From: a virus
DNA: 23,183 nucleotides
Direction: 5' to 3' (one strand)
IMG/VR virus record: IMGVR_UViG_3300042287_000204
Span: 1-23,183 of that record
The notes below the pieces were generated by a model that searched no databases, had not been told where the DNA came from, and was given only the letters and a program-made list of their open reading frames with translations. Made by a program: the position numbers and the translations under genes. Shown in pieces: positions 1 through 20,134 of this stretch (position 1 is the first letter of the stretch; the number at the start of each line of letters is the position of its first letter).

Positions 1-2
1 AA

Positions 3-134
3 GATATTCTTTTACAAGCCAAAGAAATGGAGAAGCAACAAATCATCAATTGCTATAATCAATCGTGGCATTTTAGAGATAAGCCATACGAAACAGCAGA
101 AAAATACTACAACGAAACATTTGGAAAGATATAA
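3..134 (+). CDS. C-terminal end of a truncated hypothetical protein
   Basis: An open frame enters from the left edge and ends at TAA 132-134, giving 43 visible residues. The peptide starts DILLQAKEMEKQQI and ends YETAEKYYNETFGKI, a charged, probably helical tail. Small proteins with an EMEKQQII...AE.YYNETF pattern are, as far as I recall, common in Bacteroidetes and their phages and have no assigned function. The start lies outside the window, so total length is unknown. The codon choice resembles the downstream phage genes. It is the last gene before the 618-base repeat-rich gap, so it may close the preceding transcription unit. The minus-strand ORF over 12-203 is treated as its shadow. Confidence 0.6.
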   Translation, partial: DILLQAKEMEKQQIINCYNQSWHFRDKPYETAEKYYNETFGKI

Positions 135-192
135 TATGACAAACAAAAAAAATAGTAAGCCTTTAGATTGACTAAAAATTATTACAACAAAA

Positions 193-227
193 TAGGTGGT
201 CAAATGGTAGTCAAGTAGGTGGTCAAG
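193..227. repeat. Three tandem degenerate 11-12 nt repeats
   Basis: The units read TAGGTGGTCAA (193-203), ATGGTAGTCAA (204-214) and GTAGGTGGTCAA (215-226), head to tail at nearly one unit per helical turn. They are followed at once by the small inverted repeat CGGAA-A-TTCCG (228-238). Iterated sites with this spacing commonly bind a protein (operator, iteron or small terminase site), but the partner cannot be told from the sequence. Confidence 0.6.
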
Positions 228-250
228 CGGAAATTCCGAACAACCACTCT

Positions 251-339
251 AATAATGGAAAATAATATCTAATTTTAGCGTTATAGTGGAAAAAATAGGC
301 GCAAAGCAAGAAAAATAGGCGCAATAATGGAAAATAATA
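251..339. repeat. Interleaved direct repeat pairs
   Basis: The 17-mer AATAATGGAAAATAATA is present exactly at 251-267 and 323-339. Inside that span the 14-mer AAAAATAGGCGCAA is present exactly at 291-304 and 311-324, 20 bases apart, about two helical turns. The second copies of both repeats overlap by two bases. The GGCGC core stands out in this AT-rich stretch. Function is unknown; a protein-binding array is the simplest reading. Confidence 0.65.
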
Positions 340-491
340 ACTTTTTAGCTCACTTTTATATTCTATAAAGTGCAATAAATTGCTTTTTTGAGCCACAAAT
401 ATTTGTATTTATACGCATTTGCATACAAAAGTGCTTTAAAAGGGATAATTATATGCAATTAAGGTTGTTTTATGACCAGTTAAATGCATGA

Positions 492-547
492 AACTTTACT
501 AAAACTTCATTCAATAGTTCCCAATTTGGGAACTTTACTAATACTTC
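492..547. repeat. 17-nt direct repeats around a 19-nt perfect palindrome
   Basis: AACTTTACTAAAACTTC (492-508) recurs with one change as AACTTTACTAATACTTC (531-547). Between them, and overlapping the second copy by four bases, is a perfect inverted repeat: AGTTCCCAA (516-524), a central T (525), TTGGGAACT (526-534). An odd-centred 9+9 palindrome is a typical homodimer binding site, though it could also form a hairpin in RNA. It is probably a regulatory or packaging element. Confidence 0.65.
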
Positions 548-620
548 CGTTTAGCGTTAGTAAGGGGGGGGGTGACCGAATTGACAGTTAATATATAAAG
601 TCAAAAAGGACACTATTAAT

Positions 621-658
621 GTTGGGGACTTCTTGGGGAATGTTAGGGACTTTTCCCC
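621..658. repeat. Repeated TTRGGRACTT motif and G/C-rich stem
   Basis: TTGGGGACTT (622-631) and TTAGGGACTT (643-652) repeat 21 bases apart. A related TTGGGAACTT lies in the palindrome at 526-535. GGGGAA (635-640) can pair with TTCCCC (653-658), a 6-bp stem. No T-run follows, so it is not a good terminator. The three related motifs suggest one binding factor for the whole region. Confidence 0.5.
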
Positions 659-677
659 TCTATACGATTTAGGATTG

Positions 678-693
678 TTTTGGATATCCAAAA
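678..693. repeat. 16-nt perfect palindrome
   Basis: TTTTGGATATCCAAAA reads the same on both strands. It ends 59 bases before the terminase ATG. CCAAAAT is then repeated at 688-694 and 698-704. It is a candidate operator for the terminase promoter; no binding protein is identified. Confidence 0.55.
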
Positions 694-717
694 TCTTCCA
701 AAATTTTTCTCTTTTAG

Positions 718-748
718 TTGTTTGTTATAGTAATTTGTAGTAATATTG
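718..748 (+). promoter_or_regulatory. Possible promoter of the terminase gene
   Basis: TTG at 718-720 is followed after 20 bases by TAATATTG at 741-748, close to the Bacteroidetes -33 TTTG / -7 TAnnTTTG pattern (one mismatch in the -7 box). The ATG at 753 lies only 4 bases after the box, so a transcript from here would be nearly leaderless. The same -7 variant and spacing recur at 17723-17754 on the minus strand. The match is weak in an AT-rich background. Confidence 0.3.
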
Positions 749-752
749 CATT

Positions 753-2153
753 ATGGCAGAATTAAGTGTTGAATTTCCTATGGTTAGCCAAATGGTTAAT
801 AAGAAGTTTGAGAGCATTTGGTATAATGAAGATAGATACTTGTTACTTTATGGTTCAAGGGGTTCTTCCAAGTCTAACTTTGCTGCTAAGAAAAAAGTAT
901 TTCAATGTTTGACCTTTCCTTACTTTAGGGATATTATGATTCGTGAGAGTTATAACACTATTAAGGATAGTCAGTTCCAAACTATTAAGGATATTATCTA
1001 TGAATGGGGATTAGAAAGCCTTTTCCACTTTAAAGAGAACCCTTTAGAAATCCATTGTAAGAATGGTAATATCTTTTATGCTCGTGGTTGCGATGATGTA
1101 GATAAAATCAAGTCTATTAAAGACCCTTCTGGTGCTTGGTACGAAGAAGCAAATAATATCTCTCAAGAGGACTTCTTAACCATCACTACTTCTATTAGAA
1201 CATCTAAAGCTCCGTATCTTCAAGAGGTAATGACACTTAACCCAGAATGCAAAGGAGATTATCACGACTTTTGGGTTTATAAGATGTTTTTTGAGCCTTT
1301 AGGAGGACAAATGGAAGGCAGAGCAAGTTTAGACATCCAATTAAGCGAGTTTGAAACATTAAGCACACCTTATACGGTTCATCACTCTACTTACAAAGAT
1401 AATCGCCATGTTGGTAAAGCATTTATGGCTCAATTAGAGCAATTAGCAAATATAGACCCTTATTACTATCAAGTTTATGCTTTAGGGCAATGGGGAGAGA
1501 AGAAAGCTCAAAATCCATTCTTTAGTGCTTATGACAAGAATAAACATACTAACGATGAGCCTAAATACGATTATAGAAAACCACTTTACATATCTATTGA
1601 CTTTAACTTAAATCCTTTCTCGGTTTCTTTCTATCATCTTTGGAGAGATGCTCACGGAGAACACTTGCATTGCTTTGATGAAATGGAGATTTATGGTGGT
1701 TCGATACCAGAACTGGCCGATAGAATCAATCAAAAGTACGGAAGAAGTTTACCTATGTGTAAAATAACTGGCGATGCTATGGGTAATAGAGGAGATATAT
1801 CTCAAAGGGATAATGCTTCACTTTACTTACAACTTGTTAGACTTTTAAAAGGAGTTAGAGTTACCCAGCTTTATACACCAGCCAATCCTACTCACGAAAA
1901 CAGTAGGGCCGATTGTAATTACTTTCTTTATCACTTTGATGACTTTAAGGTTAGTACAACGAGTTGTAAGGGTATGATTCGAGATTTAGCCAATATGCAA
2001 GTGGATTCATTTAACTCCATTATTAAGAAAAACCGTAAAGATGTGAACCAAAGAGCCGATTTTGGGGATAACTTTAGATATATGGTAAATACCTTTATGT
2101 TTGACTGGATTAAAAGACATTCAAAAGGAAGTAGTAGGATATATAAAAAATAA
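753..2153 (+). CDS. terL: Terminase large subunit
   Basis: This is the packaging motor that pumps DNA into proheads and cuts concatemers. The 466 residues show the expected two-domain layout. The N-terminal ATPase has a Walker A-like GSRGSSKS (residues 34-41), a Walker B-like AWYEEAN (128-134) and a coupling motif MTLNPE (160-165). The C-terminal RNase H-fold nuclease has IDFNLNP (D283), E310 and GDAMG (D341) as candidate metal ligands, plus DFGDN near 436-440. The length is normal for the family. ATG 753 is the first good start after the noncoding region. The next gene starts 13 bases after its stop. No small terminase gene is seen in the window; it would probably lie left of position 1. The ATPase and nuclease motifs make the call secure. 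Confidence 0.95.
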   Translation: MAELSVEFPMVSQMVNKKFESIWYNEDRYLLLYGSRGSSKSNFAAKKKVFQCLTFPYFRDIMIRESYNTIKDSQFQTIKDIIYEWGLESLFHFKENPLEIHCKNGNIFYARGCDDVDKIKSIKDPSGAWYEEANNISQEDFLTITTSIRTSKAPYLQEVMTLNPECKGDYHDFWVYKMFFEPLGGQMEGRASLDIQLSEFETLSTPYTVHHSTYKDNRHVGKAFMAQLEQLANIDPYYYQVYALGQWGEKKAQNPFFSAYDKNKHTNDEPKYDYRKPLYISIDFNLNPFSVSFYHLWRDAHGEHLHCFDEMEIYGGSIPELADRINQKYGRSLPMCKITGDAMGNRGDISQRDNASLYLQLVRLLKGVRVTQLYTPANPTHENSRADCNYFLYHFDDFKVSTTSCKGMIRDLANMQVDSFNSIIKKNRKDVNQRADFGDNFRYMVNTFMFDWIKRHSKGSSRIYKK

Positions 2154-2154
2154 T

Positions 2155-2162
2155 TATCTTTG
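2155..2162 (+). promoter_or_regulatory. -7-like box before the 2167 gene
   Basis: TATCTTTG matches TAnnTTTG exactly and lies 4 bases before ATG 2167, between the terminase stop and the next start. No TTTG is present 19-20 bases upstream, so the -33 element is missing. It is a weak candidate that may be chance. Confidence 0.25.
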
Positions 2163-2166
2163 TAGT

Positions 2167-2535
2167 ATGGAATGTATAAATTGCACAAGAACAAAACCAG
2201 TATTAAGCTGTGTAACTAATTTAAGAATTGGTACTTTAGCTAACTCAACTGCGTATTATGTTTATTTTAGAAATAGCTCAAGTGGTAAATTCAATAGATT
2301 AAGTGCTACCTCAAATGGTAGTGGCTTATTAACGGCTGTACTTGATTTTGACCCATTAGCTAACTCTCAATATGAAGTTTGGGTAACTTTACAAACTGCT
2401 GAAGATATAGAAGCTAAAGAAGCCATCAATATTGGTACTATTGAAGCTACTTGTCTTTTTATGCAATTCCAAAGAGTTTACAATAGTGCAAACACTTCAA
2501 TAACTGCAACTAATCAAACATTAGCCTTAGCATAA
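2167..2535 (+). CDS. Small beta-rich hypothetical phage protein
   Basis: I chose ATG 2167 because the longer reading from a TTG at 2101 would overlap the terminase end by 53 bases. The 122 residues start MECINCTRTKPVLSC, with a CxxC pair and a third Cys, then run through alternating polar and hydrophobic strands (AYYVYFRNSSSG, QYEVWVTLQT) rich in Ser, Thr and Asn. This suggests a beta-sandwich virion or tail accessory protein. There is no signal peptide and no membrane segment. Its stop overlaps the next start by one base (TAATG), so the two are probably translationally coupled. I do not recognise a family. Confidence 0.7.
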   Translation: MECINCTRTKPVLSCVTNLRIGTLANSTAYYVYFRNSSSGKFNRLSATSNGSGLLTAVLDFDPLANSQYEVWVTLQTAEDIEAKEAINIGTIEATCLFMQFQRVYNSANTSITATNQTLALA

Positions 2536-3017
2536 TGATTTACATATCTGTGATTATATCACTTGTAACTTGCTCAATAGCGATTATGAGTGATTACAAA
2601 GTAGGAGAGACTAAAAGGTTTCAGATGCTCTTATATTGGCTTAAAAAGCCTATCATTGACTTTAGAGAACGAATAGAACACATATCTACTTTAAAGAAAA
2701 GAGATGCAAGAGAATATTATTCAAATGCTATCAATTCTTTACAAGACAATGATGTAAGGAACTCTAAAGTAAAATACTATATGGACTTACAAGATAAAAA
2801 GATGGAAGAAATTGAATCTTGGAAAGAGCGTAAGCTTAATTATGAGTTTTACCTTAAACCAATCATTCTTTGCGTTTATTGTATGCCTTCTTTTTGGGGT
2901 TCTATTATCTATGTGAGCTTAAACGGATTTACCAACCCATTAGAGTGGATTTTATGTTGCACTATGAGTGTATTCATAAACGCTTTTATCTGGGACTTAT
3001 ATACTAAACTAAACTAA
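2535..3017 (+). CDS. Membrane protein of unknown function
   Basis: The protein has 160 residues. Residues 2-18 (IYISVIISLVTCSIAIM) form a hydrophobic N-terminal segment. A charged, probably helical middle (about 40-105) is rich in Lys, Glu and Arg. Two further hydrophobic stretches lie near 107-128 (PIILCVYCMPSFWG) and 137-155. That is about three membrane segments. Such small membrane proteins between terminase and tail genes are, to my knowledge, frequent in Bacteroidetes phages. A holin-like or superinfection-exclusion role is possible, but there is no lysis gene next to it to support that. It overlaps the upstream stop by one base and ends one base before the next ATG. Confidence 0.7.
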   Translation: MIYISVIISLVTCSIAIMSDYKVGETKRFQMLLYWLKKPIIDFRERIEHISTLKKRDAREYYSNAINSLQDNDVRNSKVKYYMDLQDKKMEEIESWKERKLNYEFYLKPIILCVYCMPSFWGSIIYVSLNGFTNPLEWILCCTMSVFINAFIWDLYTKLN

Positions 3018-3018
3018 A

Positions 3019-3681
3019 ATGATTATTGCCAAAAACTTACAATCTGTTTACAAAAACAACAAAGAAGAACTTTTAAAGCTTTTAGCGAAAGACCAAAACA
3101 AACCAATCGGATTTGATGAGTTAGAATACTCGTTTGTGGACTTTCAAGGCAAGAAATACTATTCATTTCCAGAAGCAACTGCTTTACCTATTGAAAGATT
3201 GGCTAAAATGGAAGAATACAAGGTTTATATGTCAAGTGGCCTTCACGCTGATATGGTTACAGAGATAACAGAGTATATGGAATCTATCTTAGGTAAGATT
3301 GTAAACTCTGGCCTTGACAACGAAGTAAAAAAGAACTCCTCAAAGAATATTGGAGATTTAGGAATGCTGATTAGAGAGTTAAAGGAAAGACAAAAGACTT
3401 TTATTCCTATTGAGATATATTATGCGTTCTTAGCTATCCAATTAGTTAGAGAGGATGAGAACCCACATATCTTTAACAATAGCGTTCATAACTCTAAAAT
3501 AGCTGCATTGATGGATTTAAACGAACACAATGGTGGGTTTTTTTTTGGCCAAAGGGAATCGAAACAGCTTCAAAGCTGGTTGAATATGTCAGAACCAGAA
3601 TGGAACGAATACTGGCAGAACTCAATACAGTTTCATCAAACAAGAATAAAAGCATTAGAAACTTACTTATCAATCAAATAG
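3019..3681 (+). CDS. Tail assembly chaperone-like protein (gpG-like, short form)
   Basis: The 220-residue product is mostly charged and helical with no catalytic motif. It begins MIIAKNLQSVYKNNKEELL. The call rests mainly on context: it lies directly before the tape measure gene, where many long-tailed phages encode gpG/gpGT chaperones that coat the tape measure during tail assembly. Inside it, codons 174-176 are TTT TTT TTT (3538-3546). The -1 frame is open across this site and on to 3830, the usual arrangement for the frameshifted long form. Unshifted translation ends at TAG 3679-3681. Another structural role is possible; sequence identity to a known chaperone was not tested. Confidence 0.6.
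   Translation: MIIAKNLQSVYKNNKEELLKLLAKDQNKPIGFDELEYSFVDFQGKKYYSFPEATALPIERLAKMEEYKVYMSSGLHADMVTEITEYMESILGKIVNSGLDNEVKKNSSKNIGDLGMLIRELKERQKTFIPIEIYYAFLAIQLVREDENPHIFNNSVHNSKIAALMDLNEHNGGFFFGQRESKQLQSWLNMSEPEWNEYWQNSIQFHQTRIKALETYLSIK
3538..3546 (+). promoter_or_regulatory. Candidate -1 programmed ribosomal frameshift site
   Basis: Nine T follow GGG and are read as three Phe codons. The heptamer T TTT TTT (3540-3546) fits the X XXY YYZ slippery rule. A slip of -1 makes the next codon TGG at 3546-3548. The -1 frame has no stop from 3498 to 3828. I did not find a strong downstream stem by eye. A homopolymer sequencing error is the alternative. Confidence 0.6.
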
Positions 3682-3830
3682 TCATTGCTATGCGTGATGA
3701 CAGAGAGCAGCTTCTGATGCGACTTTCTGATGGAGATAAAGTGCAGTATGATTCCTTAAAGAAGGCCAATGTAAGGGAGTTTTTGAATAAATTTACTATA
3801 TTTGTAGATGAGTTGAAAGTGCCAAAGTAA
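3546..3830 (+). CDS. -1 frameshift extension of the chaperone-like gene (gpGT-like C-terminus)
   Basis: Entered by a -1 slip on the T-run, this frame encodes 94 residues starting WPKGIETASKLVEYV and ending FTIFVDELKVPK before TAA 3828-3830. The fusion would be about 270 residues (176 + 94). The region is charged and amphipathic, and ends 38 bases before the tape measure ATG. The frame is open from 3498, well before its first ATG at 3600, which argues that it is entered by frameshifting. Independent initiation at ATG 3600 would give a 76-residue protein and remains possible. Confidence 0.6.
   Translation, partial: WPKGIETASKLVEYVRTRMERILAELNTVSSNKNKSIRNLLINQIVIAMRDDREQLLMRLSDGDKVQYDSLKKANVREFLNKFTIFVDELKVPK
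3789..3804 (+). promoter_or_regulatory. Candidate late promoter box before the tape measure leader
   Basis: TATATTTG (3797-3804) is preceded by AAATTTAC. The same arrangement (AAAATTAG then TATATTTG) precedes the gene at 10754. In both places the box ends 14-15 bases before the GTGCC of the leader motif. No -33 TTTG is seen at normal spacing. This box lies inside coding sequence, so chance is possible. Confidence 0.35.
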
Positions 3831-3850
3831 CAAGGCAAATAATGAGTTAC
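3819..3850 (+). promoter_or_regulatory. Predicted pseudoknot leader motif, copy 1 (tape measure)
   Basis: GTGCC (3819-3823), spacer AAA, stem arm GTAAC (3827-3831), loop starting AAGGCA (3832-3837), stem arm GTTAC (3846-3850). TGCC can pair with GGCA in the loop, which makes an H-type pseudoknot. It ends 18 bases before ATG 3869 and overlaps the stop of the frameshift ORF. Copies 2 and 3 are at 10694 and 19024. Confidence 0.6.
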
Positions 3851-3868
3851 CTTTAATAAGATACCATT

Positions 3869-6220
3869 ATGGCACAAGTAATAGAAACCGTATTTTCAAT
3901 TAGAACCGAGGAAAGCGTAGCTAACCTTAATGAAGTTGTTGGAGCTTTAGGCAGAACTGAAGCGGCTGGTAAAAAAGCAGCTAAAGGTGTTTCTGATGAA
4001 ATGGCTAAGATTCCAGCATCAACCAAAAAGGCAGCATCTGGATTTAACGGCTTAGCAAACTCAATAAATCAAGTTTCAAGGGAATTACCAGCTTTTGCGT
4101 TTTCAGCTCAAACTGGTTTCTTGGCTATATCAAACAACATACCTATTTTAATTGATGAGATTACTGCTCTTAGAAAAGCCAATGCTTTACTTAACGCTGA
4201 AGGTAAAGCTTCTGTTCCAGTATGGCAACAAGTAGCTAAATCTTTATTTTCGTGGCAAACAGCTATGTCAGTAGGTATTTCATTATCTGTACTTTATGCT
4301 AAAGAAATAGGAGCTTTCTTTAAGGAGTTATTTAAAGGTAAAGAAGCAATAGATGCTGCTAAAATAAGTTTAAATGCTTTAAATAAAGCTTATGAAAGCC
4401 AAGAGTTAAAATCTTCGATACAATCTTTATATGAAATGAGAATAAATCTTGCATCTGCAAATGCTGGTTTTATTAATCAAAAAGCAACTTTAGAAGAATA
4501 TAATAAGACTTTTGGTGTTACTTTTGGTATTGCTAAGAGTGTTAATGAAGCCGAACAAACTTTAATTAAAGGCACTCCATCTTATATACAAGCTTTAATA
4601 CAAAGAGCAGCAGCTCAAGAATTAATTAATGAAGCTTCTGCTGATTTATTAGCAAGAGATAAAGCTATTAGGGATAGAAATGCAATACAAGCAAAAATAG
4701 ATAAAGCAAACGCAGATGCTTTAAAAGATAAATCTGGAAGTGCAGCATTAGGTGGAAGTATGTTTGGCCCAACATCGCAACAAACTGGAGCTAATATTTT
4801 ATATTTAGAAAAACAGAAAAAAGTTTTAGGGGAAGAAATAAATAATTTTGATAAAGCACAACAAACTAAATTAAAATTAGCAGAAGGATATGCCTTTGAA
4901 TCTGCTAAATTTTTAAAGACTGGATTAGATGATGATGGTGGTAAAAATGCTACAAAGATACTTAAAACTCAATTTGAACTATTACAAGAGCAAATAGGTA
5001 AATTAAAAACTCAAATAGAAAATGGTATCTATACTGGCAAAAATGTAGATAAAGATATTGAATTATTAGCCAAATTAGAACAAAAGGTAAAAGATGTAGA
5101 AAAAGCATTTAGTGTTCTTACTGGAGAAGATGCTGAATTAAATTTTGAAGCTGCTATTAAAGATTCTGAAGACTTTTTAACCGAAATAGGTAAACAATCA
5201 AGTGATGATTTAAAAGATAGAAGAAAGGAAGATAAAAAAGCTATTGAAGATAAACTTTCAGCTAACAAGGAATTTTATCTAAGAAGAAAAGAACAAGCTG
5301 GAGATAATCAAGCACAATTAGACATTGAAAATGAAAATGAAATATTAGGCGATATTAAGGTTTATAAAGAAGCATTAGCTGCTGGAGAAGATTATGGAGA
5401 TAAATTATTAGCAGCAGAAGATAAATTAAGACTTCTTAGATTAGCTAATGATAGAAAATATGCTAAAGAGAAACAGAAAATAGAAGAAGAAGTTACAATG
5501 GCTTCAATTCAAATAGCTCAAACTGCTGCTGATGAAATATTTCAAAGACAAAGAAATAATGCTAACGCTAATGCTAATGCAGAAATATCAAATCTTGAAT
5601 CATTAGCAGAAAAGAAAATAATATCAGAAGAAGAACTTGGAAAGAGAAAAGCTGATATAATGAATAGAAATGCGGAAACTCAAAGACAATATGATTTAGC
5701 TCAAATTAGTGTAAATACTGCATTGTCTATTATTAAAACATTTGCACAACTTGGTTGGCCAGCTGGTATTGTTCCAGCCGCTTTAGCAGCAGCAGAAGGA
5801 CTTGTTCAATATTCATTTGCAGCTTCTCAACCATTACCTAAGTTTTATGCTAAGGGTACAGATAGAGTTACTGGCGGTATTGCTGGTAAAGATAGTGTTA
5901 GTGCTATGTTAATGCCTAATGAAGCAGTTATTCCAGCTAAGGCTAATATGGAAAGACAAGGCCTTGCAAAGGCTTGGATTAACGGCGATTTAGATAGACA
6001 TTTAGCTATGAATTATATTAACCCAGCTATTAATGAGGTTAATCGTAAATGGGAAACATCATTAAAGCTTAACCAACAAAGCACATTTATTAGAAATGAT
6101 AACTTTAGTGATAAGAAGATTGTAGGAGAATTAGTTAAATCTAATAGATTAAATAGAGTATTAATAAGTTCATTATCAGATAATAAATCATCAAAAAGAA
6201 ATAGGAGAAGCTGGAATTGA
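3869..6220 (+). CDS. Tail tape measure protein
   Basis: This protein sets tail length and is expected to be ejected during DNA entry. The 783 residues have the typical make-up: an Ala/Lys-rich N-terminus, a hydrophobic stretch near 120-151 (AMSVGISLSVLYAKEI), a long charged coiled-coil-like middle (about 155-610) with many Lys, Glu and Gln, a second hydrophobic segment near 613-655 (WPAGIVPAALAAAEG), and a C-terminus with FYAKGTDRVTGGIAGKDSV followed by MLMPNEAVIPAKANMERQG, a pattern I associate with tape measure C-termini. If about 1.5 angstrom per residue applies, the tail would be roughly 115 nm. It follows the chaperone-like gene and overlaps the next gene by 4 bases. ATG 3869 follows a noncoding leader carrying pseudoknot copy 1. 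Confidence 0.85.
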   Translation: MAQVIETVFSIRTEESVANLNEVVGALGRTEAAGKKAAKGVSDEMAKIPASTKKAASGFNGLANSINQVSRELPAFAFSAQTGFLAISNNIPILIDEITALRKANALLNAEGKASVPVWQQVAKSLFSWQTAMSVGISLSVLYAKEIGAFFKELFKGKEAIDAAKISLNALNKAYESQELKSSIQSLYEMRINLASANAGFINQKATLEEYNKTFGVTFGIAKSVNEAEQTLIKGTPSYIQALIQRAAAQELINEASADLLARDKAIRDRNAIQAKIDKANADALKDKSGSAALGGSMFGPTSQQTGANILYLEKQKKVLGEEINNFDKAQQTKLKLAEGYAFESAKFLKTGLDDDGGKNATKILKTQFELLQEQIGKLKTQIENGIYTGKNVDKDIELLAKLEQKVKDVEKAFSVLTGEDAELNFEAAIKDSEDFLTEIGKQSSDDLKDRRKEDKKAIEDKLSANKEFYLRRKEQAGDNQAQLDIENENEILGDIKVYKEALAAGEDYGDKLLAAEDKLRLLRLANDRKYAKEKQKIEEEVTMASIQIAQTAADEIFQRQRNNANANANAEISNLESLAEKKIISEEELGKRKADIMNRNAETQRQYDLAQISVNTALSIIKTFAQLGWPAGIVPAALAAAEGLVQYSFAASQPLPKFYAKGTDRVTGGIAGKDSVSAMLMPNEAVIPAKANMERQGLAKAWINGDLDRHLAMNYINPAINEVNRKWETSLKLNQQSTFIRNDNFSDKKIVGELVKSNRLNRVLISSLSDNKSSKRNRRSWN

Positions 6221-14390: not shown

Positions 14391-16295
14391 ATGTACAGTA
14401 TAGAAGAAATTGCAGCTAAGATTAAGCGTGTTTCTGCTCTTGCTATTGAAGCTGAGAGAGAACGCAAACAAAGAGCTTACAATAGTGATGTAGCTATGTT
14501 ATTCGGTAGCGAATACATTGATGTACTACCAGACTATTTTGAAGGCTATGATGAATCAGTTGAGGATTATGAAGCTATTAGAGTTCATAGTGAGAAAAAC
14601 TGTTTCCCAGCAAGATTGTTTGCAAAGAGAGCACCTAATCAAACGGAACAAGCAGCTCGTTGGATGCAAGATAACTATAAAAATGTTACGCAACCAGTAT
14701 TCGTTGATTTCTTAAATACTGTACTTCGTGCAACACACGACCAAAATTGGAGTATTCACTTTGGTTTAGATGCACCACAATACGAACAAGCTGGATTAAC
14801 ATTCCAAAAATATTTAGATAATGACATTAGAGATTATGGTTCATTGGAATCATTCTTTAAACAAGTAATGTTTGCATTGCAATTAAAAGATGCAATGGGT
14901 GTTATTGCTATTAGACCAGATTCTCTTGAAATGCTTGAGGATGAAAATGGTGGATATGTTTTAGATTCAACTAAACTTATTGAACCACAACCATATTATT
15001 TTACATCAAGACAAGTAGTTGGATTTGAAACAAGTTATTGTATTGTAGAATCTGATGAGCGTTCTATTGTAGAATATTACGGAAGCAAAAGAGAAAAAGG
15101 TAGAATCTATGAGTTTTATGATGACCAAAATATTTGGTTTTGTAAACAAGTAGGCAAATATGTAGATAATCAATTTGAGATTACTTTATTTTACAATCAT
15201 GGTTGGGGTAAAGTCCCAGCTACTCGTTTAAGAGGTATTCCAGTAGTTTACGAAGGTAAAGTATTATGGCAATCTCCTTTCTTATTTGCTACTGACTTAT
15301 TAGATTTAGTTGCACAGAATAGTGCTTACAAACAAGCAAGTATTGCTAAATGCGTATTCCCAGCTACAATTATGTTGGGAGATATTTGTGAGTTTGAAGA
15401 AAATGGGAATAGATGTAGTGATGGTATTATAGGATTTAATGATGAAGATGGTAACTATCATTCTCACACTTGTTCTAATTGCCACGGAGTTGGTTTAGTT
15501 TCTCGTTTAGGCCCATTGGAAACAATGTTAATTAAGCCAGAAGTTAGAGGACAAAACGAAAGTGAATTGCGTTCTTCTCAAGAGCCATTAAAATATGTTT
15601 CTCCAGAGGTTCATACTTTACAATTCTTAGAGGAATCTATTGATAAAACCGAGATGAAGGCTCGTAAGATTCTTCACTTGCAAACATCAAGCTCTGATAT
15701 TAAGGGTTATGAGAATATGACTGCTACTGGAACTGTATTAGACAATAAAGCTGCATTTGCATTTATTATGCCTATTGCACATACTGCATTTGAAACATTT
15801 GAGTTTATCATTAATGCTATTGGTTGGATGCGTTACAAGGATGATTATGTAAAGCCTTCTATTGCATATCCACAAAGCTTTGATATTGGAACTGAAAGAG
15901 ATATTTTAATGACTATCTCGGAAATGGTTAAGAACCAAGTTCCAGCAGTATTGATTCACGCAGAGATATTTAGATACTTAAAATCAGTATTCTACACAGA
16001 TGCTAAAACAACTGCTGTTTACGAATTAATGATTAATACAGATAGGTTATTAGTTTTAAGTGGCGATGAGGTTATGTTAAGACAAGCTAAAGGTCTTGCA
16101 GAAAGATGGGAAGTTATCTTACACGATTCATTTATGTCATTCGTTGACCAGATGATTGCTTTAGAGCCAGATTTCTTAACTCAAGATTTCGAGGTTCAAA
16201 AGACAAAGATAATTGATATGGCTAAATTAAAAGCTGCTCAAATAACTGAAAGTAATAATGTATCAGTACAAGGTATTGATTCAATGATTCAATAA
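14391..16295 (+). CDS. Portal protein
   Basis: This is probably the dodecameric ring at the capsid vertex that passes DNA and joins the tail. The 634 residues are acidic and soluble, with a long helical C-terminal half (FEFIINAIGWMRY, ILMTISEMVKNQVPAV) and a place directly before a Mu F-like head gene, the usual portal position. The length is at the upper end for siphovirus portals. It holds an unusual Cys cluster, C333-x8-C342-x18-C361-x2-C364, with the last pair in CSNCHGVG, which resembles a DnaJ-type zinc motif. The stop overlaps the next start by one base (TAATG). The call depends on position, size and pattern; a direct family motif is not obvious. Confidence 0.75.
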   Translation: MYSIEEIAAKIKRVSALAIEAERERKQRAYNSDVAMLFGSEYIDVLPDYFEGYDESVEDYEAIRVHSEKNCFPARLFAKRAPNQTEQAARWMQDNYKNVTQPVFVDFLNTVLRATHDQNWSIHFGLDAPQYEQAGLTFQKYLDNDIRDYGSLESFFKQVMFALQLKDAMGVIAIRPDSLEMLEDENGGYVLDSTKLIEPQPYYFTSRQVVGFETSYCIVESDERSIVEYYGSKREKGRIYEFYDDQNIWFCKQVGKYVDNQFEITLFYNHGWGKVPATRLRGIPVVYEGKVLWQSPFLFATDLLDLVAQNSAYKQASIAKCVFPATIMLGDICEFEENGNRCSDGIIGFNDEDGNYHSHTCSNCHGVGLVSRLGPLETMLIKPEVRGQNESELRSSQEPLKYVSPEVHTLQFLEESIDKTEMKARKILHLQTSSSDIKGYENMTATGTVLDNKAAFAFIMPIAHTAFETFEFIINAIGWMRYKDDYVKPSIAYPQSFDIGTERDILMTISEMVKNQVPAVLIHAEIFRYLKSVFYTDAKTTAVYELMINTDRLLVLSGDEVMLRQAKGLAERWEVILHDSFMSFVDQMIALEPDFLTQDFEVQKTKIIDMAKLKAAQITESNNVSVQGIDSMIQ

Positions 16296-17218
16296 TGACT
16301 TTAGAAGAAATTATAAAGCTTAAATTATCAAGGTTAGATGATATTCCTACTGCATACACCAATGGTATAAAAGATACGCAGAAGGAGATTATGTTGGAGA
16401 TGTTGGATTCTTTAGAACAACTAAAGAGGGATGAGAAAGGAAACATAAAAAGAACTCAAGCTAACCTATCAATCATTGAAGATATTAACGATGACCTTCA
16501 AAAGATATTTAAAGCTTCAGAGTACCTTTCACTTACTTCAGTATTCTTAAAAGAGTTTGATGAACAAGCAAAAATAACAGATGACTTCTTTAAGAAAGCA
16601 TTTGGAGATTTTGAGGTATCTTCTTTTAATTTAAAAGCATTAGAGGTAAGCCGTAAACAAGCATTTGAATTAATGGCTGGACAAGCTTATTTAACTTCTA
16701 ATCTATACAATCCAGTAAAGAATATCTTAACAGATGCAGTAGTTGCTGGGGATGCCTACGGTAAGACAGTTAAAGCTATCAGCCAAGCCATACAAGGTGG
16801 TACAATCAACGGAAACAAGTTAGAGGGTAGATTATATCGTTATGCTAAACAAATGGCTTTTGACACCTTCGCAGTAGCTGACAGAGGATATACTAATAAT
16901 ATAGCTCAAGATTTAGATGTGGAATGGTATGCTTATAGAGGTGGCCTTGTTGAAGATTCAAGACAATTCTGTATTACTCGTAACGGAAAATACTACCATA
17001 AGAAAGAAGTAGAAGCTTGGGGAGATTTAAAGCAATGGGATGGTAAAATACCAGCAACTGATAGCAAGACAATATTTGTTTACGCTGGAGGTTATAGATG
17101 CAACCATTCTATACTTCCTAATGCCATATCTGCTACACCAGTAGATGTTATCCAAAGGAACATTGAAAATGGTAACTTTACCCCTACAAAAGCAGAGATA
17201 GAAATATTAGGATTGTAG
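16295..17218 (+). CDS. Minor head protein, Mu gpF-like (head morphogenesis)
   Basis: The 307 residues have an N-terminal helical region and the conserved C-terminal block of the Mu F-like family: EDSRQFCITRNGKYYHKKEV, then a Trp-rich WDGKIPATDSKT, then AGGYRCNHSILP. This Cys/His-containing module is typical of minor head proteins encoded next to the portal, which help to build proheads. The gene follows the portal with a one-base overlap. Its TAG stop (17216-17218) overlaps by three bases the 3' end of the minus-strand tRNA-like gene, so the two converge. Confidence 0.85.
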   Translation: MTLEEIIKLKLSRLDDIPTAYTNGIKDTQKEIMLEMLDSLEQLKRDEKGNIKRTQANLSIIEDINDDLQKIFKASEYLSLTSVFLKEFDEQAKITDDFFKKAFGDFEVSSFNLKALEVSRKQAFELMAGQAYLTSNLYNPVKNILTDAVVAGDAYGKTVKAISQAIQGGTINGNKLEGRLYRYAKQMAFDTFAVADRGYTNNIAQDLDVEWYAYRGGLVEDSRQFCITRNGKYYHKKEVEAWGDLKQWDGKIPATDSKTIFVYAGGYRCNHSILPNAISATPVDVIQRNIENGNFTPTKAEIEILGL

Positions 17219-17340
17219 TTAGGATAGGATTTGAACCTATATGGTAGGCTTATCTAGAAAGCCGTTTGAAGTACCTATTACAAAAGTCTTATAGCTATTA
17301 ATGCTTTTGATTTTAGCGTTTACCGTTTCGCCACCTAACT
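17216..17340 (-). tRNA. Abnormal 125-nt tRNA-like gene (Leu-like features)
   Basis: On the minus strand, 7-bp acceptor arms AGTTAGG (17340-17334) and CCTAACT (17223-17217) pair perfectly, followed by a discriminator A. The D-arm has TGGCG, a loop with CGGTAAA, and CGC, close to the Leu-type box. The T-arm is canonical: ATAGG, TTCAAAT, CCTAT. Between D- and T-arms, however, lie 75 nt where about 23 (class I) or 32 (Leu class II) are expected. One 5/7/5 hairpin there, GGCTT-TCTAGAT-AAGCC, would carry anticodon UAG (reads CUA, Leu), but position 33 would be C. CCA is not encoded. It is an intact-ended tRNA with about 45-50 extra bases, a decayed tRNA, or a tRNA mimic. Confidence 0.6.
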
Positions 17341-17345
17341 ATTTT

Positions 17346-17537
17346 TTATAAAGATTTAAGCTCTTTAATCTCTCTAATTTCTTCTTTATGTACTCCATCA
17401 ATCATCACGAAGATAACTGTACTTTGCACAATAAAGTTTACTTTGTTTAAATGCACATCGTGCTTTTTAGCATAGAACTCTTTTAACTTATGAAGTGTTT
17501 GATATAATACTTCAATTTCTCTTTTCCTTACAATCAT
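17346..17537 (-). CDS. Small hypothetical protein
   Basis: The 63 residues begin MIVRKREIEVLYQTLHKLKEF. They have an amphipathic N-terminal helix, a hydrophobic strand (VNFIVQSTVIFVMID) and a charged C-terminus rich in Glu and Lys. There is no known motif. It overlaps the stop of the ribbon-helix-helix-like gene by one base (TAATG) and ends 5 bases before the tRNA-like gene, so the three probably share a transcript. It is one of only three genes on the minus strand here. It could be a partner or antitoxin-like companion, but nothing proves that. Confidence 0.6.
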   Translation of the reverse strand: MIVRKREIEVLYQTLHKLKEFYAKKHDVHLNKVNFIVQSTVIFVMIDGVHKEEIREIKELKSL

Positions 17538-17698
17538 TATTTTCCTAATAAAAGTTTATTAACTGCTGTTTCAATACTAATCTTAACTCCACTTTCAGTT
17601 AGAGCCTTAGCTTGTCTTGCGTGAATGATAGCCATTGCTTCTCCACAGAATTTAATTGTTGCTGTTATACAGTCTTTATTTTTGCGTTCCCTTGCCAT
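17537..17698 (-). CDS. Small ribbon-helix-helix-like DNA-binding protein
   Basis: This 53-residue ORF begins MARERKNKDCITATIKFCGEA and ends SIETAVNKLLLGK. The pattern is a basic N-terminus, a short strand (ITATIKF), a helix (GEAMAIIHARQAKALTES) and, after GVKI, a second helix. That fits Arc/MetJ-type ribbon-helix-helix repressors, which bind DNA as dimers. The gene is first in the minus-strand cassette. ATATAGT repeats at 17697, 17707 and 17756 around its start and the divergent promoter are plausible operators, so it may regulate itself and the + strand gene at 17791. The fold call is by eye from a short protein. Confidence 0.6.
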   Translation of the reverse strand: MARERKNKDCITATIKFCGEAMAIIHARQAKALTESGVKISIETAVNKLLLGK

Positions 17699-17762
17699 AT
17701 AGTAACATATAGTAATAAACTACAATATTAGGTATAAATATTCACATTTCCAAACATATAGT
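17697..17762. repeat. ATATAGT repeats in a divergent promoter region (operator candidates)
   Basis: ATATAGTAAC (17697-17706) and ATATAGTAAT (17707-17716) are tandem 10-base repeats, one helical turn apart, at the start of the ribbon-helix-helix-like gene. A third ATATAGT lies at 17756-17762, just before the -7 box of the opposite gene. ACATATAGT, 9 bases, is shared by the second and third copies. Small dimeric repressors often bind such iterated sites. Confidence 0.45.
17723..17754 (-). promoter_or_regulatory. Candidate promoter of the minus-strand cassette
   Basis: Read on the minus strand, TTTG (17754-17751) is followed after 20 bases by TAATATTG (17730-17723), one mismatch from TAnnTTTG with normal Bacteroidetes spacing. 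The expected start is near 17716, which falls in the ATATAGT repeats and 18 bases before ATG 17698. Confidence 0.45.
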
Positions 17763-17764
17763 CC

Positions 17765-17772
17765 TATATTTG
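17765..17772 (+). promoter_or_regulatory. -7-like box for the gene at 17791
   Basis: TATATTTG matches TAnnTTTG exactly and ends 18 bases before ATG 17791. A TTG inside it (17770) could be read as a start codon, but use as a promoter box is more likely. No -33 element is clear. Confidence 0.4.
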
Positions 17773-17790
17773 AAGAAAAAACAAATATTT

Positions 17791-18102
17791 ATGTCAGTAA
17801 GATGCCTAAATGAGAAGGGAACAGTAGTCTTTATCCCAGAAAAGCTCGTAGCAATGCCAGACTACATGAGGAGAAATAAACTTGTCGTAGATGAGATAAA
17901 ACCTCAAGAACCATTAAAACCTTTATCACAAGTTAATTTAGAGGTAGAAAAACCACAAGAAGTAGTAGATGATTCTCCAATCGTTGAAATAGAAGAAGAA
18001 CTCACTAAAGAGGAATACTGGGCTATTTTAGATGAAAAAGGAATTGAATACAAAAAAACTTACGGAATTAATAAACTTAAAGAATTAGCAAATGCCAATT
18101 AA
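17791..18102 (+). CDS. Small protein with C-terminal HeH/LEM-like helical motif
   Basis: I take ATG 17791 as the start (MSVRCLNEKGTVVFIPEKL) and not the TTG at 17770, which lies in a promoter-like box. The product has 103 residues: a small N-terminal beta-like part (1-40), an acidic and Pro-rich linker (about 41-70), and a C-terminal EEYWAILDEKGIEYKKTYG then NKLKELA, which fits the short HeH/LEM or SAP-like helix-extended-helix motif seen in many phage proteins encoded near head genes. It overlaps the scaffold gene by 11 bases. A role in capsid assembly or head completion is inferred from position. Confidence 0.65.
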   Translation: MSVRCLNEKGTVVFIPEKLVAMPDYMRRNKLVVDEIKPQEPLKPLSQVNLEVEKPQEVVDDSPIVEIEEELTKEEYWAILDEKGIEYKKTYGINKLKELANAN

Positions 18103-18952
18103 AGAAGAAGAATTAAAACAATTTGTGTCTGAATATTTAGACATCAATGTTGATTCAATCGAATCATTAGACAACTTAAAAGAAACATTTGGTTCATCAT
18201 TCGCAAGAAAAGATGTTTACAAGTCAGAATTATCAAAAGACCCAAATTTCATTAATCCATTAATCGGTAAAAGATTAGGAACTATTGAAACAAAGATTAA
18301 ACAAGCAGCTAAGGATAAACTATCTTTAGAGTTTGATGCTGGGGATTTCAAGGATAAGTCTGTTGAGGATTTACTTGATTTAGTAACTGACAAAGCAAAA
18401 GGCAAGTTTGAAAAAGAGCTTGGCGATATGCGTTCAAAGGTAACTGGCGATTCAAGTGAAATTGAAACTAAATACCAAGAGCAATTAAAGTTACTTCGTG
18501 AAGAAGCATCTAATTGGAAAAACCAAGCTACTAATGCAAACCAAGAGTTTGAATCATTCAAGACTGGGTTAGTAGTTAAAGAGAAACAACAAAAGCTAAA
18601 CTCTAATTTAGAGAAAGCATTTAACTCTGTTAAGTATGCTCCAGAAGCAGATGAGCTTCGTAAAGAAGGCTTTAAGACAAAGATTATGTCAGATGTAAAG
18701 TTTGATTTTGATGAAAATGATAATTTTAGTATCTTTGACAAAGAAGGTAAGACTTTATTCCATCCTAACAAGGCTGGAGTTCAATACTCTCCAGAAGATT
18801 ATTTAAGAGATAAAGCTATTGAATATAAGATTTACCAAATGAATCCAGATGGAGGCAGACAAACTAATCAGAGAGTGGTAACACAAGCTGAAGTTAATGC
18901 TCCAGAAGGGCCAAGAGGAAGAATAATACACCCATCGGCTTCTCAGTATTAA
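18092..18952 (+). CDS. Capsid scaffolding protein candidate
   Basis: The 286 residues are highly charged and predicted helical, with a coiled-coil-like core near 110-190 (KFEKELGDMRSKVTGDSSEI, then EEASNWKNQATNANQEFESF). This is typical of scaffolds that shape the prohead and are then removed. It sits directly before the major capsid gene, the standard place. No protease triad is visible. The C-terminus (GRQTNQRVVTQAEVNAPEG) is basic and flexible, as in scaffold tails that bind the coat. The start overlaps the previous gene by 11 bases. A 6-bp hairpin covers the stop codon. Confidence 0.75.
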   Translation: MPIKEEELKQFVSEYLDINVDSIESLDNLKETFGSSFARKDVYKSELSKDPNFINPLIGKRLGTIETKIKQAAKDKLSLEFDAGDFKDKSVEDLLDLVTDKAKGKFEKELGDMRSKVTGDSSEIETKYQEQLKLLREEASNWKNQATNANQEFESFKTGLVVKEKQQKLNSNLEKAFNSVKYAPEADELRKEGFKTKIMSDVKFDFDENDNFSIFDKEGKTLFHPNKAGVQYSPEDYLRDKAIEYKIYQMNPDGGRQTNQRVVTQAEVNAPEGPRGRIIHPSASQY

Positions 18953-19024
18953 CTGAGTTGCCCTTGTGGCAAAATATACACATCGCAAGTGCGTGGATGC
19001 CTTATCCAATAATTAAGGAATAAG
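18942..19024 (+). promoter_or_regulatory. Tandem hairpins in the capsid gene leader
   Basis: Four small stems follow one another. CTCAGT-ATTA-ACTGAG (18942-18957) spans the scaffold stop. TTGCC-CTTGT-GGCAA spans 18958-18972. CGC-AAGT-GCG spans 18984-18993. CTTATCC with GGAATAAG (one bulged A) spans 19001-19024. None is followed by a T-run, so they are not typical terminators. They may be mRNA 5' stability structures or processing sites ahead of the capsid message. Individual stems are short. Confidence 0.45.
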
Positions 19025-19061
19025 TGCCGAAAACTTACAAGGCAATATGAAATATGTAAGT
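19024..19061 (+). promoter_or_regulatory. Predicted pseudoknot leader motif, copy 3 (major capsid protein)
   Basis: GTGCC (19024-19028), spacer GAAA, stem arm ACTTACA (19033-19039), loop starting AGGCA (19040-19044), stem arm TGTAAGT (19055-19061), 7 perfect pairs. TGCC/GGCA again gives a crossing helix. It ends 23 bases before ATG 19085, the same distance as copy 2. Confidence 0.65.
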
Positions 19062-19084
19062 GCATTTATTTTAATTTAATTATT

Positions 19085-20134
19085 ATGTCGTATGTATTAG
19101 GACAATTAACAGCGTGTCCAACCATCCAAAGAGAACTGACAGATTATTTTATGACTTGTCCAGTTAATGAGTTTATGCCATTCTTTGAATTCGTAAACTC
19201 TCCAGTAAACAATATCGGCCTTACTCAAGAAGTAGCCCCAGGCGGAGGAAAGATTAGAACTGTAAGATTAACTTACACTCCTCGCCAATTAGAATCAGCA
19301 GTTACAGCTAACATTGCTAACCCTAAGTGTGATGTATCTAACTTCATCGGAGATAGATTTACAGATTACACATTAGATACAGATGAAAACCAAGGTATTG
19401 GTTTCTCAATGACTGCTCAAGAATTAGAAGCAGCTTGTATTGCTAACGAAACATATTTTGTTCGTAGATTAGCAGATTTAGTTGATGCTTTAGACCGTAA
19501 ATTAGCTACTGAGCATACTGCTGACTTAGCTTCTTTAGTAGGTAAATGGGCTTCAAATGTAACTATGAACGCATCTAATGAGTTTGTAGTAAATACATTA
19601 CAAGCTGGTTCAACTATGATTGACCCACAAACAACTGCAAAGATTGACTTTGCAATGCAAAAGACTGGTTATTGCAATGAATCAATGATTTTTGCTGGTT
19701 CTACTCTTGCTGAGTATTACAGAGCAACTTCATCTGCTGGATGTTGCACACAACAAGGTATTGATGTTGCGACTATCTTCAACCAATACGGTAAAGCGGT
19801 AGCTTATGACAGAAGAATCGAAGCGATTTTTGGAACAGCTAATGCTGTTGCAATTCAAGCTGGTTCATTAACTTTGTTAAGTTACACTCGTAGCCCTTGG
19901 AAAGAAGGTATGCCACTTCCTTATCGTGATGCTGGTAACTACATTTCAACTGTAATTCGCTCTCCAAGAACTGGAATCCCTATGGATTTAACAGTTTCTG
20001 ATAGCTGTGGTACAGTTTCGGTTTCGCTTGTAGCAACTACAAAACTTGTTGGATTACCTTTGGACATTTATGCTCAAGGCGATTTCATGAGTGGTGTAAA
20101 CTATATGGCACAAATCAAAGTTACAAATTCATAA
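19085..20134 (+). CDS. Major capsid protein
   Basis: The 349-residue product begins MSYVLGQLTACPTIQREL. Its size, place after the scaffold, structured leader and strong terminator all point to the main coat subunit. GGGKIRTVRLTYTPRQLES, AAEL-like helices (QELEAACIANETYFVRRLAD) and a late RSPRTGIPMDLTVSD beta segment fit an HK97-type fold with spine helix and P-domain. There is no obvious N-terminal delta domain, which agrees with a separate scaffold gene. ATG 19085 follows a 132-base noncoding leader. No other gene here fits the coat role better. Confidence 0.85.
   Translation: MSYVLGQLTACPTIQRELTDYFMTCPVNEFMPFFEFVNSPVNNIGLTQEVAPGGGKIRTVRLTYTPRQLESAVTANIANPKCDVSNFIGDRFTDYTLDTDENQGIGFSMTAQELEAACIANETYFVRRLADLVDALDRKLATEHTADLASLVGKWASNVTMNASNEFVVNTLQAGSTMIDPQTTAKIDFAMQKTGYCNESMIFAGSTLAEYYRATSSAGCCTQQGIDVATIFNQYGKAVAYDRRIEAIFGTANAVAIQAGSLTLLSYTRSPWKEGMPLPYRDAGNYISTVIRSPRTGIPMDLTVSDSCGTVSVSLVATTKLVGLPLDIYAQGDFMSGVNYMAQIKVTNS

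Follow-up and report, generated by a model that had tools for sequence, protein, structure and literature searches.

The window analysed here is an entire IMG/VR contig of 23,183 bp from an uncultured tailed phage, and coordinates refer to it unless a relative is named. Its large terminase gene, terL, lies at 753..2153 on the plus strand (Terminase_3 PF04466, E 8.9e-43; TIGR01547, PBSX-type, over cut-off) and is preceded by 619 bp of non-coding DNA (134-752). The contig starts 134 bp upstream of the block flagged in the first-pass annotation (135-752), inside a small ORF, so the block is seen here without its left half. The phage apparently infects Bacteroidota, since TAnnTTTG-type promoter boxes occur in its relatives and its MAG relatives are labelled Bacteroidetes or Bacteroidales. 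Among the matches listed, the nearest annotated TerL is that of Pseudanabaena phage Pan5, at 31.5% identity. No annotated phage in the collection searched resembled the first 2.2 kb of the window DNA, no DNA similar to the island between terS and terL was found among the annotated phages or plasmids searched, no cultured member of the phage group was found in the data searched, and a literature search found nothing in print on the terS-terL island of this clade.

Beyond terL the late gene order is unusual (753-20134), with long ORFs standing between terL and the portal gene (14391-16295, phrog_7376). One of these, at 3869-6220, is tape-measure-like by look and matches a PHROG virion structural protein. 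Four consecutive late-region ORFs at 11354-14257 possibly encode glycan-modifying enzymes; one has DUF6492 and weak glycosyltransferase-2 similarity, one resembles an FkbM-type methyltransferase, and the remaining two have no Pfam match. Farther downstream, a 132-bp gap (18953-19084) folds as a long hairpin that is not significant (z -1.8), followed by a long ORF (19085-20134) that is possibly the capsid gene.

No plus-strand ORF longer than 35 aa was found inside 135-752, where stops are abundant in all three plus frames, and the other late gaps are 38-232 bp, which bears out the first-pass annotation in calling this the one large non-coding gap; it is the largest of the contig. Its closest rival (17219-17769) contains a tRNA-like gene and two small minus-strand ORFs. 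The tRNA-like gene (17216-17340, minus strand) scores 38.4 bits against the Rfam tRNA family, which exceeds the threshold; its acceptor and T stems are perfect, about 50 extra bases lie between its D arm and its T arm, and ARAGORN makes no call. Against contig L004, which is 93-95% identical elsewhere, this gene stands out as an insertion of about 128 bp. The two ORFs (63 and 53 aa, 17346-17698) sit in an otherwise plus-strand late region and may form a small regulatory or cargo unit, with Bacteroidota-type promoter matches at 17751 (minus, divergent) and 17656 (plus), both also present in L004.

The flagged block holds five direct-repeat families. Direct repeats (14-mers, up to 1 mismatch) cover 160 bases of it, compared with a mean of 5 in dinucleotide shuffles, and this cover was matched by none of 300 shuffles and none of 110 other windows of the contig, in agreement with the several repeat families first reported. 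The palindromes reported alongside them fared less well: as a class they are not above chance, the observed cover being reached in 65 of 300 shuffles, and the best symmetric dyad (centre 685.5) was reached by 15 of 500. Two single dyads are of note, at 570-614 and 667-704; for the first, a spaced dyad, 2000 shufflings of its sequence in the L004-type form, where it is strongest, never gave an equal one.

Most of the left part of the block can be matched to relatives. The small ORF at the contig edge (3..133, plus strand) is the 3′ end of a small cassette ORF that starts beyond the edge; its C-terminal 43 aa (...QAKEMEKQQIINCYNQSW...YYNETFGKI) are in the same frame as an 81-aa ORF of contig L005 (5740-5985) and a 66-aa ORF of contig L071 (2001-2201). 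Window 14-173 is 98% identical to L071 2081-2240, and the first part of the cassette 3′ tail (134..173) lies inside this match as well as inside matches of 88-90% to L003 and L005. The next 82 bp (174..255), which carry GTGGTCAA repeats and a nested inverted repeat, have no match in relatives, and a 19-mer from them gave 0 matches in IMG/VR; since in L003, L005 and L071 the flanks corresponding to 173 and 256 lie side by side, at a distance of 1 base, this stretch is an insertion seen in the window only. The tail continues at 256..352 (90% identical to L071 2242-2339 and, over 256-338, likewise 90% identical to L005) and bears the repeat pairs AATAATGGAAAATAAT (251, 323) and AAAAATAGGCGCAA (291, 311); the 14-mer repeat pair keeps its 20-nt spacing in L005. 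A second window-only stretch without a match in relatives (353..376) lies within an AGCTCA...TGAGC inverted repeat, and at 389..505 are the cassette-associated elements D (TACGCATTT...) and the first part of E (TGCATGAAACTTTACTAAAAC). Here window 389-486 is 71% identical to L071 2344-2431 and window 482-505 (24 nt) is 95.8% identical to L071 1668-1691; these elements are also matched in L003 and L005, and E in L002 too. By homology, window 14-173 and 256-505 thus comprises the last part of a small gene together with the 3′ tail that follows it. Scans found no plus-strand terminator inside this tail.

Together, the L071 matches and the 174-255 insertion indicate that most of the repeats first noticed belong to, or copy, cassette-tail elements, among them the AAAAATAGGCGCAA pair, TGGAAAATAAT and the first AACTTTACTAA copy. 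The repeats are conserved in relatives, so the original reading is not refuted on that point, but they are conserved as parts of a cassette, and for the original observation this means that the repeats are mostly cassette tail and not a packaging signal.

The other end of the cassette is seen in relatives. A candidate promoter, TTGG-N18-TAACTTTG, lies after an invariant block (block A, below), outside the window, in four of the six islands whose left half is seen (L003, L005, L012 and L013), and is absent from L002 and L004, both of which lack a cassette ORF. In a Bacteroidota genome, an ORF that we take to be Ffh-like has a 24/25 match to this promoter at its start. Behind the promoter L005 carries the 81-aa ORF and a second short ORF; in L012 and L013 other ORFs begin there and are cut by the contig end; and L003 has the promoter and tail with no clear mini-gene. 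The number of mini-genes thus varies, from two in L005 to none in L003, L002 and L004, and at the same place the module is present in some close relatives and absent or replaced in others. Three different mini-genes follow exact copies of a 19-nt leader, TTAAACAACAAACAAAATG, and a fourth follows only the final 17 nt of it, so that in four phages different mini-genes start behind a common leader of 17-19 nt. Scanning 439 kb on one strand, in a set chosen by homology that does not serve as a population estimate, turned up no other match with up to 2 mismatches.

The same module also occurs in an unrelated genomic context. Relatives of the 81-aa cassette protein were found in 18 other viral contigs, and a TerL-like match lies within about 2 kb of its gene in one of these (L083). 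Contig L071 (G404, 30,621 bp), to which L072 is identical in cassette sequence, holds a GTCCAGTT...AACTGGAC dyad, a fragment of E, two ORFs (one of the L013 type and one of the window/L005 type) and the tail. The TerL of G404 is a Terminase_6N protein to which the window TerL gives no match, and the two large terminases are not recognisably related. The order in G404 runs from the cassette through an HNH gene, a RusA-like gene and a putative terS, named by position with no family hit and overlapping terL, to terL itself, and so the cassette lies outside the terS-terL junction. Besides the cassette, only 2 proteins (63-68%) are common to G404 and the clade of the window, in a comparison of plus-strand ORFs of at least 80 aa from 24 kb of G404.

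That clade consists of the window and four contigs with TerL 98-100% identical to it (L002, L003, L004 and L005), and three more contigs (L012, L013 and L015) have terS or the upstream half of the island in common with it. The terS-like gene encodes 91-102 aa, is DUF5681-like below Pfam's own cut-off and was named terS by position. The gap between it and terL is 972 bp in L002, 1007 bp in L003, 634 bp in L004 and 1441 bp in L005, giving a clade range of 0.6-1.4 kb. In more distant relatives the ORF before terL ends no more than 60 bp away or overlaps it in all 32 loci examined (27 viral, 5 MAG), which makes the gap a peculiarity of the window's clade. These 32 are what is left of 38 loci after the removal of four clade members (L023-L025 and L039) and of L048 and L052, which had too little upstream DNA or were not examined; the genome loci L061-L064 are outside the count. 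Start codons were taken mechanically, and larger gaps seen in a first pass in L028, L047, L057 and L058 were removed once overlaps of up to 75 nt were allowed. Two distant relatives have a GIY-YIG endonuclease ORF directly upstream of terL (L029 978-1664 and L032 1034-1726), by its placement another kind of insertion at the terL junction.

The remainder of the block, window 506-752, was found only in the five-member clade; of E, only the first 24 nt recur in L071, and exact IMG/VR scans with parts of block B and of the terL-proximal element returned clade contigs alone. The rest of element E (506..560) has a TTCCCAATTTGGGAA palindrome and CTTTACTAA repeats. The core, CCCAAWTTGG, is present in the island of 7/7 contigs tested and occurs nowhere else in them; the full palindrome is missing from L004. 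Block B (570..614) is the spaced dyad TTGAC-N14-GTCAA with outer arms TG(A/T)CC...GGACA, found in 5/5 clade members with that part and nowhere else in their contigs. The variable block F (617..664) aligns between the window and L002, partially in L004, and is absent from L003 and L005. Block G (667..710, plus strand), a hairpin TTTTGGATATCCAAAA followed by a T-rich tract, could be an attenuator or terminator, and by reading its hairpin is kept in 5/5, including L004 after a 10-bp deletion. At mean identities of 95% (B) and 97% (G), these blocks are conserved no better than the neighbouring terL coding DNA (97%), so selection on them is not proven; because their conservation equals that of the start of terL, the functions suggested for them come from position, dyads and hairpins.

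Immediately before terL, TATAGTAATTTGTAGTAATA (726..745, plus strand) forms paired decamers around TAATTTGT (731-738) and is a candidate non-canonical terL promoter, being exact in the window, L002, L003 and L005 and present in L004 by reading. The available text of a study of Flavobacterium psychrophilum (PMC9723704) describes TAnnTTGY as an alternative SM5 box. TAATTTGT fits this box, weak evidence given that so short a motif is expected about once per kb by chance (our own estimate). In 5/5, the plus strand from the cassette promoter (or terS) up to terL has no TAnnTTTG sequence (sigma-A -7 box), and E. coli-type sigma-70 promoters number 3 compared with 4.8 in shuffles. The paired decamer TATAGTAANNTRTAGTAATA (TATAGTAA..) occurs exactly twice in the window, at 726-745 and 17698-17717, as a possible shared operator; 0.26 occurrences are expected with up to 3 mismatches, for a motif chosen after both copies had been seen. 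The late (terL) operon probably has its 5′ control region in window 506-752. The promoter control proposed in the first-pass annotation would suit the terL-proximal ~250 bp, which are conserved in 5/5 and lie between the terS unit and the late operon.

The reading that we consider well favoured is that the block is a composite, in which the tail of an exchangeable cassette is joined to a late-operon 5′ region. Window 1-505 would be the end of a mini-gene and the non-coding 3′ tail of a small cassette placed between terS and terL. A full cassette runs from the Bacteroidota-type promoter, whose activity we infer from its sequence, through a 5′ leader with a GTCCA...TGGAC dyad and a single mini-gene or a pair of them, with TTAAACAACAAACAAAATG as the leader in every case, to the repeat-bearing tail; as the window lacks the left half, promoter and leader are attributed to it from its relatives. 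We infer that mini-genes are probably swapped by homologous recombination at the common leader and tail sequences; no recombinase turned up, and no exchange was observed directly. The internal repeats would have arisen by local duplication and insertion in the non-coding tail. Window 506-752, with the operator-like dyad B, hairpin G and the candidate promoter immediately upstream of terL, would allow control of terL separate from that of terS.

The left half of the island, outside the window, would fit such a separation. A TAMCTTTG -7 box precedes terS in 7/7, and a scan found a terminator after terS in 3/6; by reading, a compensatory change distinguishes the terminator stem of L002 from that of L013 (GCCC/GGGC vs GGCC/GGCC). 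On these signals terS is a unit of its own, with its own promoter box and often its own terminator. Just downstream, two A3T9 tracts 140-142 bp apart (in L012 by reading) enclose block A, 70 bp that are invariant in 6/6; of the 265 ungapped columns outside it, 129 show no variation, and terS DNA has a mean identity of 79% with a longest invariant run of 9 columns. The probability computed for block A, about 3e-20, assumes independent columns and is illustrative only. Its region gave short AT-rich partial matches alone in Bacteroidota genomes (12/395). In L002 and L005 block A is overlapped by a minus-strand ORF, which was discounted on inspection by eye because L004 reads it in another frame. 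The resemblance between block A and reverse-complemented block B (score 27 vs mean 18, reached in 39/2000 shuffles) was judged too weak to use.

Block A is our strongest candidate for a cis-site, and with it comes the question of packaging, cos and pac being used as in the available text of a small-terminase review (PMC9611059). The first-pass annotation had suggested a cos or pac site in the flagged block. For 135-505 this is not supported by the sequence comparisons: window 14-173 and 256-505 do not travel with a cognate terminase, as these segments recur in G404 beside a non-homologous one and outside the terS-terL junction. For 506-752, seen in the clade only, that comparison has no second terminase to draw on. 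A packaging site within the island, at block A between its A3T9 tracts or at dyad B, is possible and in our judgement unlikely. The invariance of block A against the background of terS and the near-constant spacing of the tracts speak for it, as does SPP1, where pac and late promoters adjacent to terS overlap, according to the available part of its genome paper (PMC6316719). Assembled contig ends also fall in or near the island in 6/8 clade contigs, compared with 2.4 expected (P 0.006, in a zone chosen afterwards). However, these six ends lie at six different positions, and such scatter is equally expected from strain mosaicism, mosaic-driven assembly breaks fitting it at least as well as genome ends; the cassette parts beside an unrelated terminase and the 32 of 32 more distant relatives with homologous TerL and no such gap weigh against it further.

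Mini-genes are gained and lost at the island and its repeats resemble local duplications, as would be expected if it were decayed coding DNA, left over from small genes since lost and itself without function; the invariance of block A and the confinement of CCCAAWTTGG and TTGAC-N14-GTCAA to the island argue against this, and we hold it to be quite improbable. Least probable, by a little, is that the island encodes a structured RNA (a leader or small RNA), since the long plus-strand hairpin of block A (-18.7 kcal/mol, z -2.9, with G-U pairs, the minus strand folding worse) and further hairpins in E (region z -2.3) and G are set against no covariation, block A never varying and its RNA and DNA roles hence being indistinguishable, no Rfam family at threshold and no canonical -7 box directly before block A. 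Rfam matches to known structured RNAs over the island were all below the gathering threshold and were taken as chance.

We suggest, tentatively and with the balance somewhat against it, that Bacteroidota phages share a plug-in mini-gene system, in which a constant promoter-dyad-leader head and a repeat-bearing tail take different tiny ORFs behind an identical 19-nt leader. In one clade an array of this kind would have invaded the junction of terS and terL, beside an ultra-conserved element of 70 bp, and so separated terS from the late operon. The data suggest that tiny cargo genes may swap between structurally unrelated phages via a common non-coding leader and tail, and that terS and terL, normally a tight pair, can be driven apart by an array of this kind. 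Next to terS, the invariant block of 70 bp offers a defined target for tests of packaging or late-gene control.

Several known systems offer partial parallels. The PeSL elements of T4-type phages, attributed to Arbiol et al. (2010), are reportedly mobile, non-coding regulatory cassettes that promote small-gene shuffling, each defined by a T4 early promoter and a stem-loop. The present cassette likewise appears to be a non-coding regulatory cassette associated with small-gene shuffling, but it is not T4-like, differing in host, in its promoter (of Bacteroidota type) and in its hairpins, and it was seen at a single locus per contig. It also recalls the morons, or added phage transcription units, a concept set out in the available part of the SPP1 genome paper (PMC6316719), in being a small accessory gene with its own, here predicted, promoter at a gene boundary in some relatives only. 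Unlike those units, it has several unrelated mini-genes with one identical 5′ leader and one 3′ tail, and its set recurs in a phage with an unrelated terminase. With no terminator in its tail, and the G hairpin before terL merely terminator-like, we call it an exchangeable cassette, a variant and not a textbook moron. In Phi13 (Ltr/P23) and TP901-1 (Alt), late-operon control regions carry direct repeats, according to the available portion of PMC13123087, and the present locus similarly has a repeat-bearing region before a late operon with packaging genes; it differs in lying between terS and terL, and its operator role is a prediction. The SPP1 pac, as far as PMC6316719 describes it in that part, likewise adjoins the terminase genes and overlaps promoters, which here are candidates, but it overlaps the start of terS, whereas the present gap follows terS and is known from sequence alone. 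The points that set this island apart from the known systems are the leader common to several mini-genes and the placement between terS and terL.
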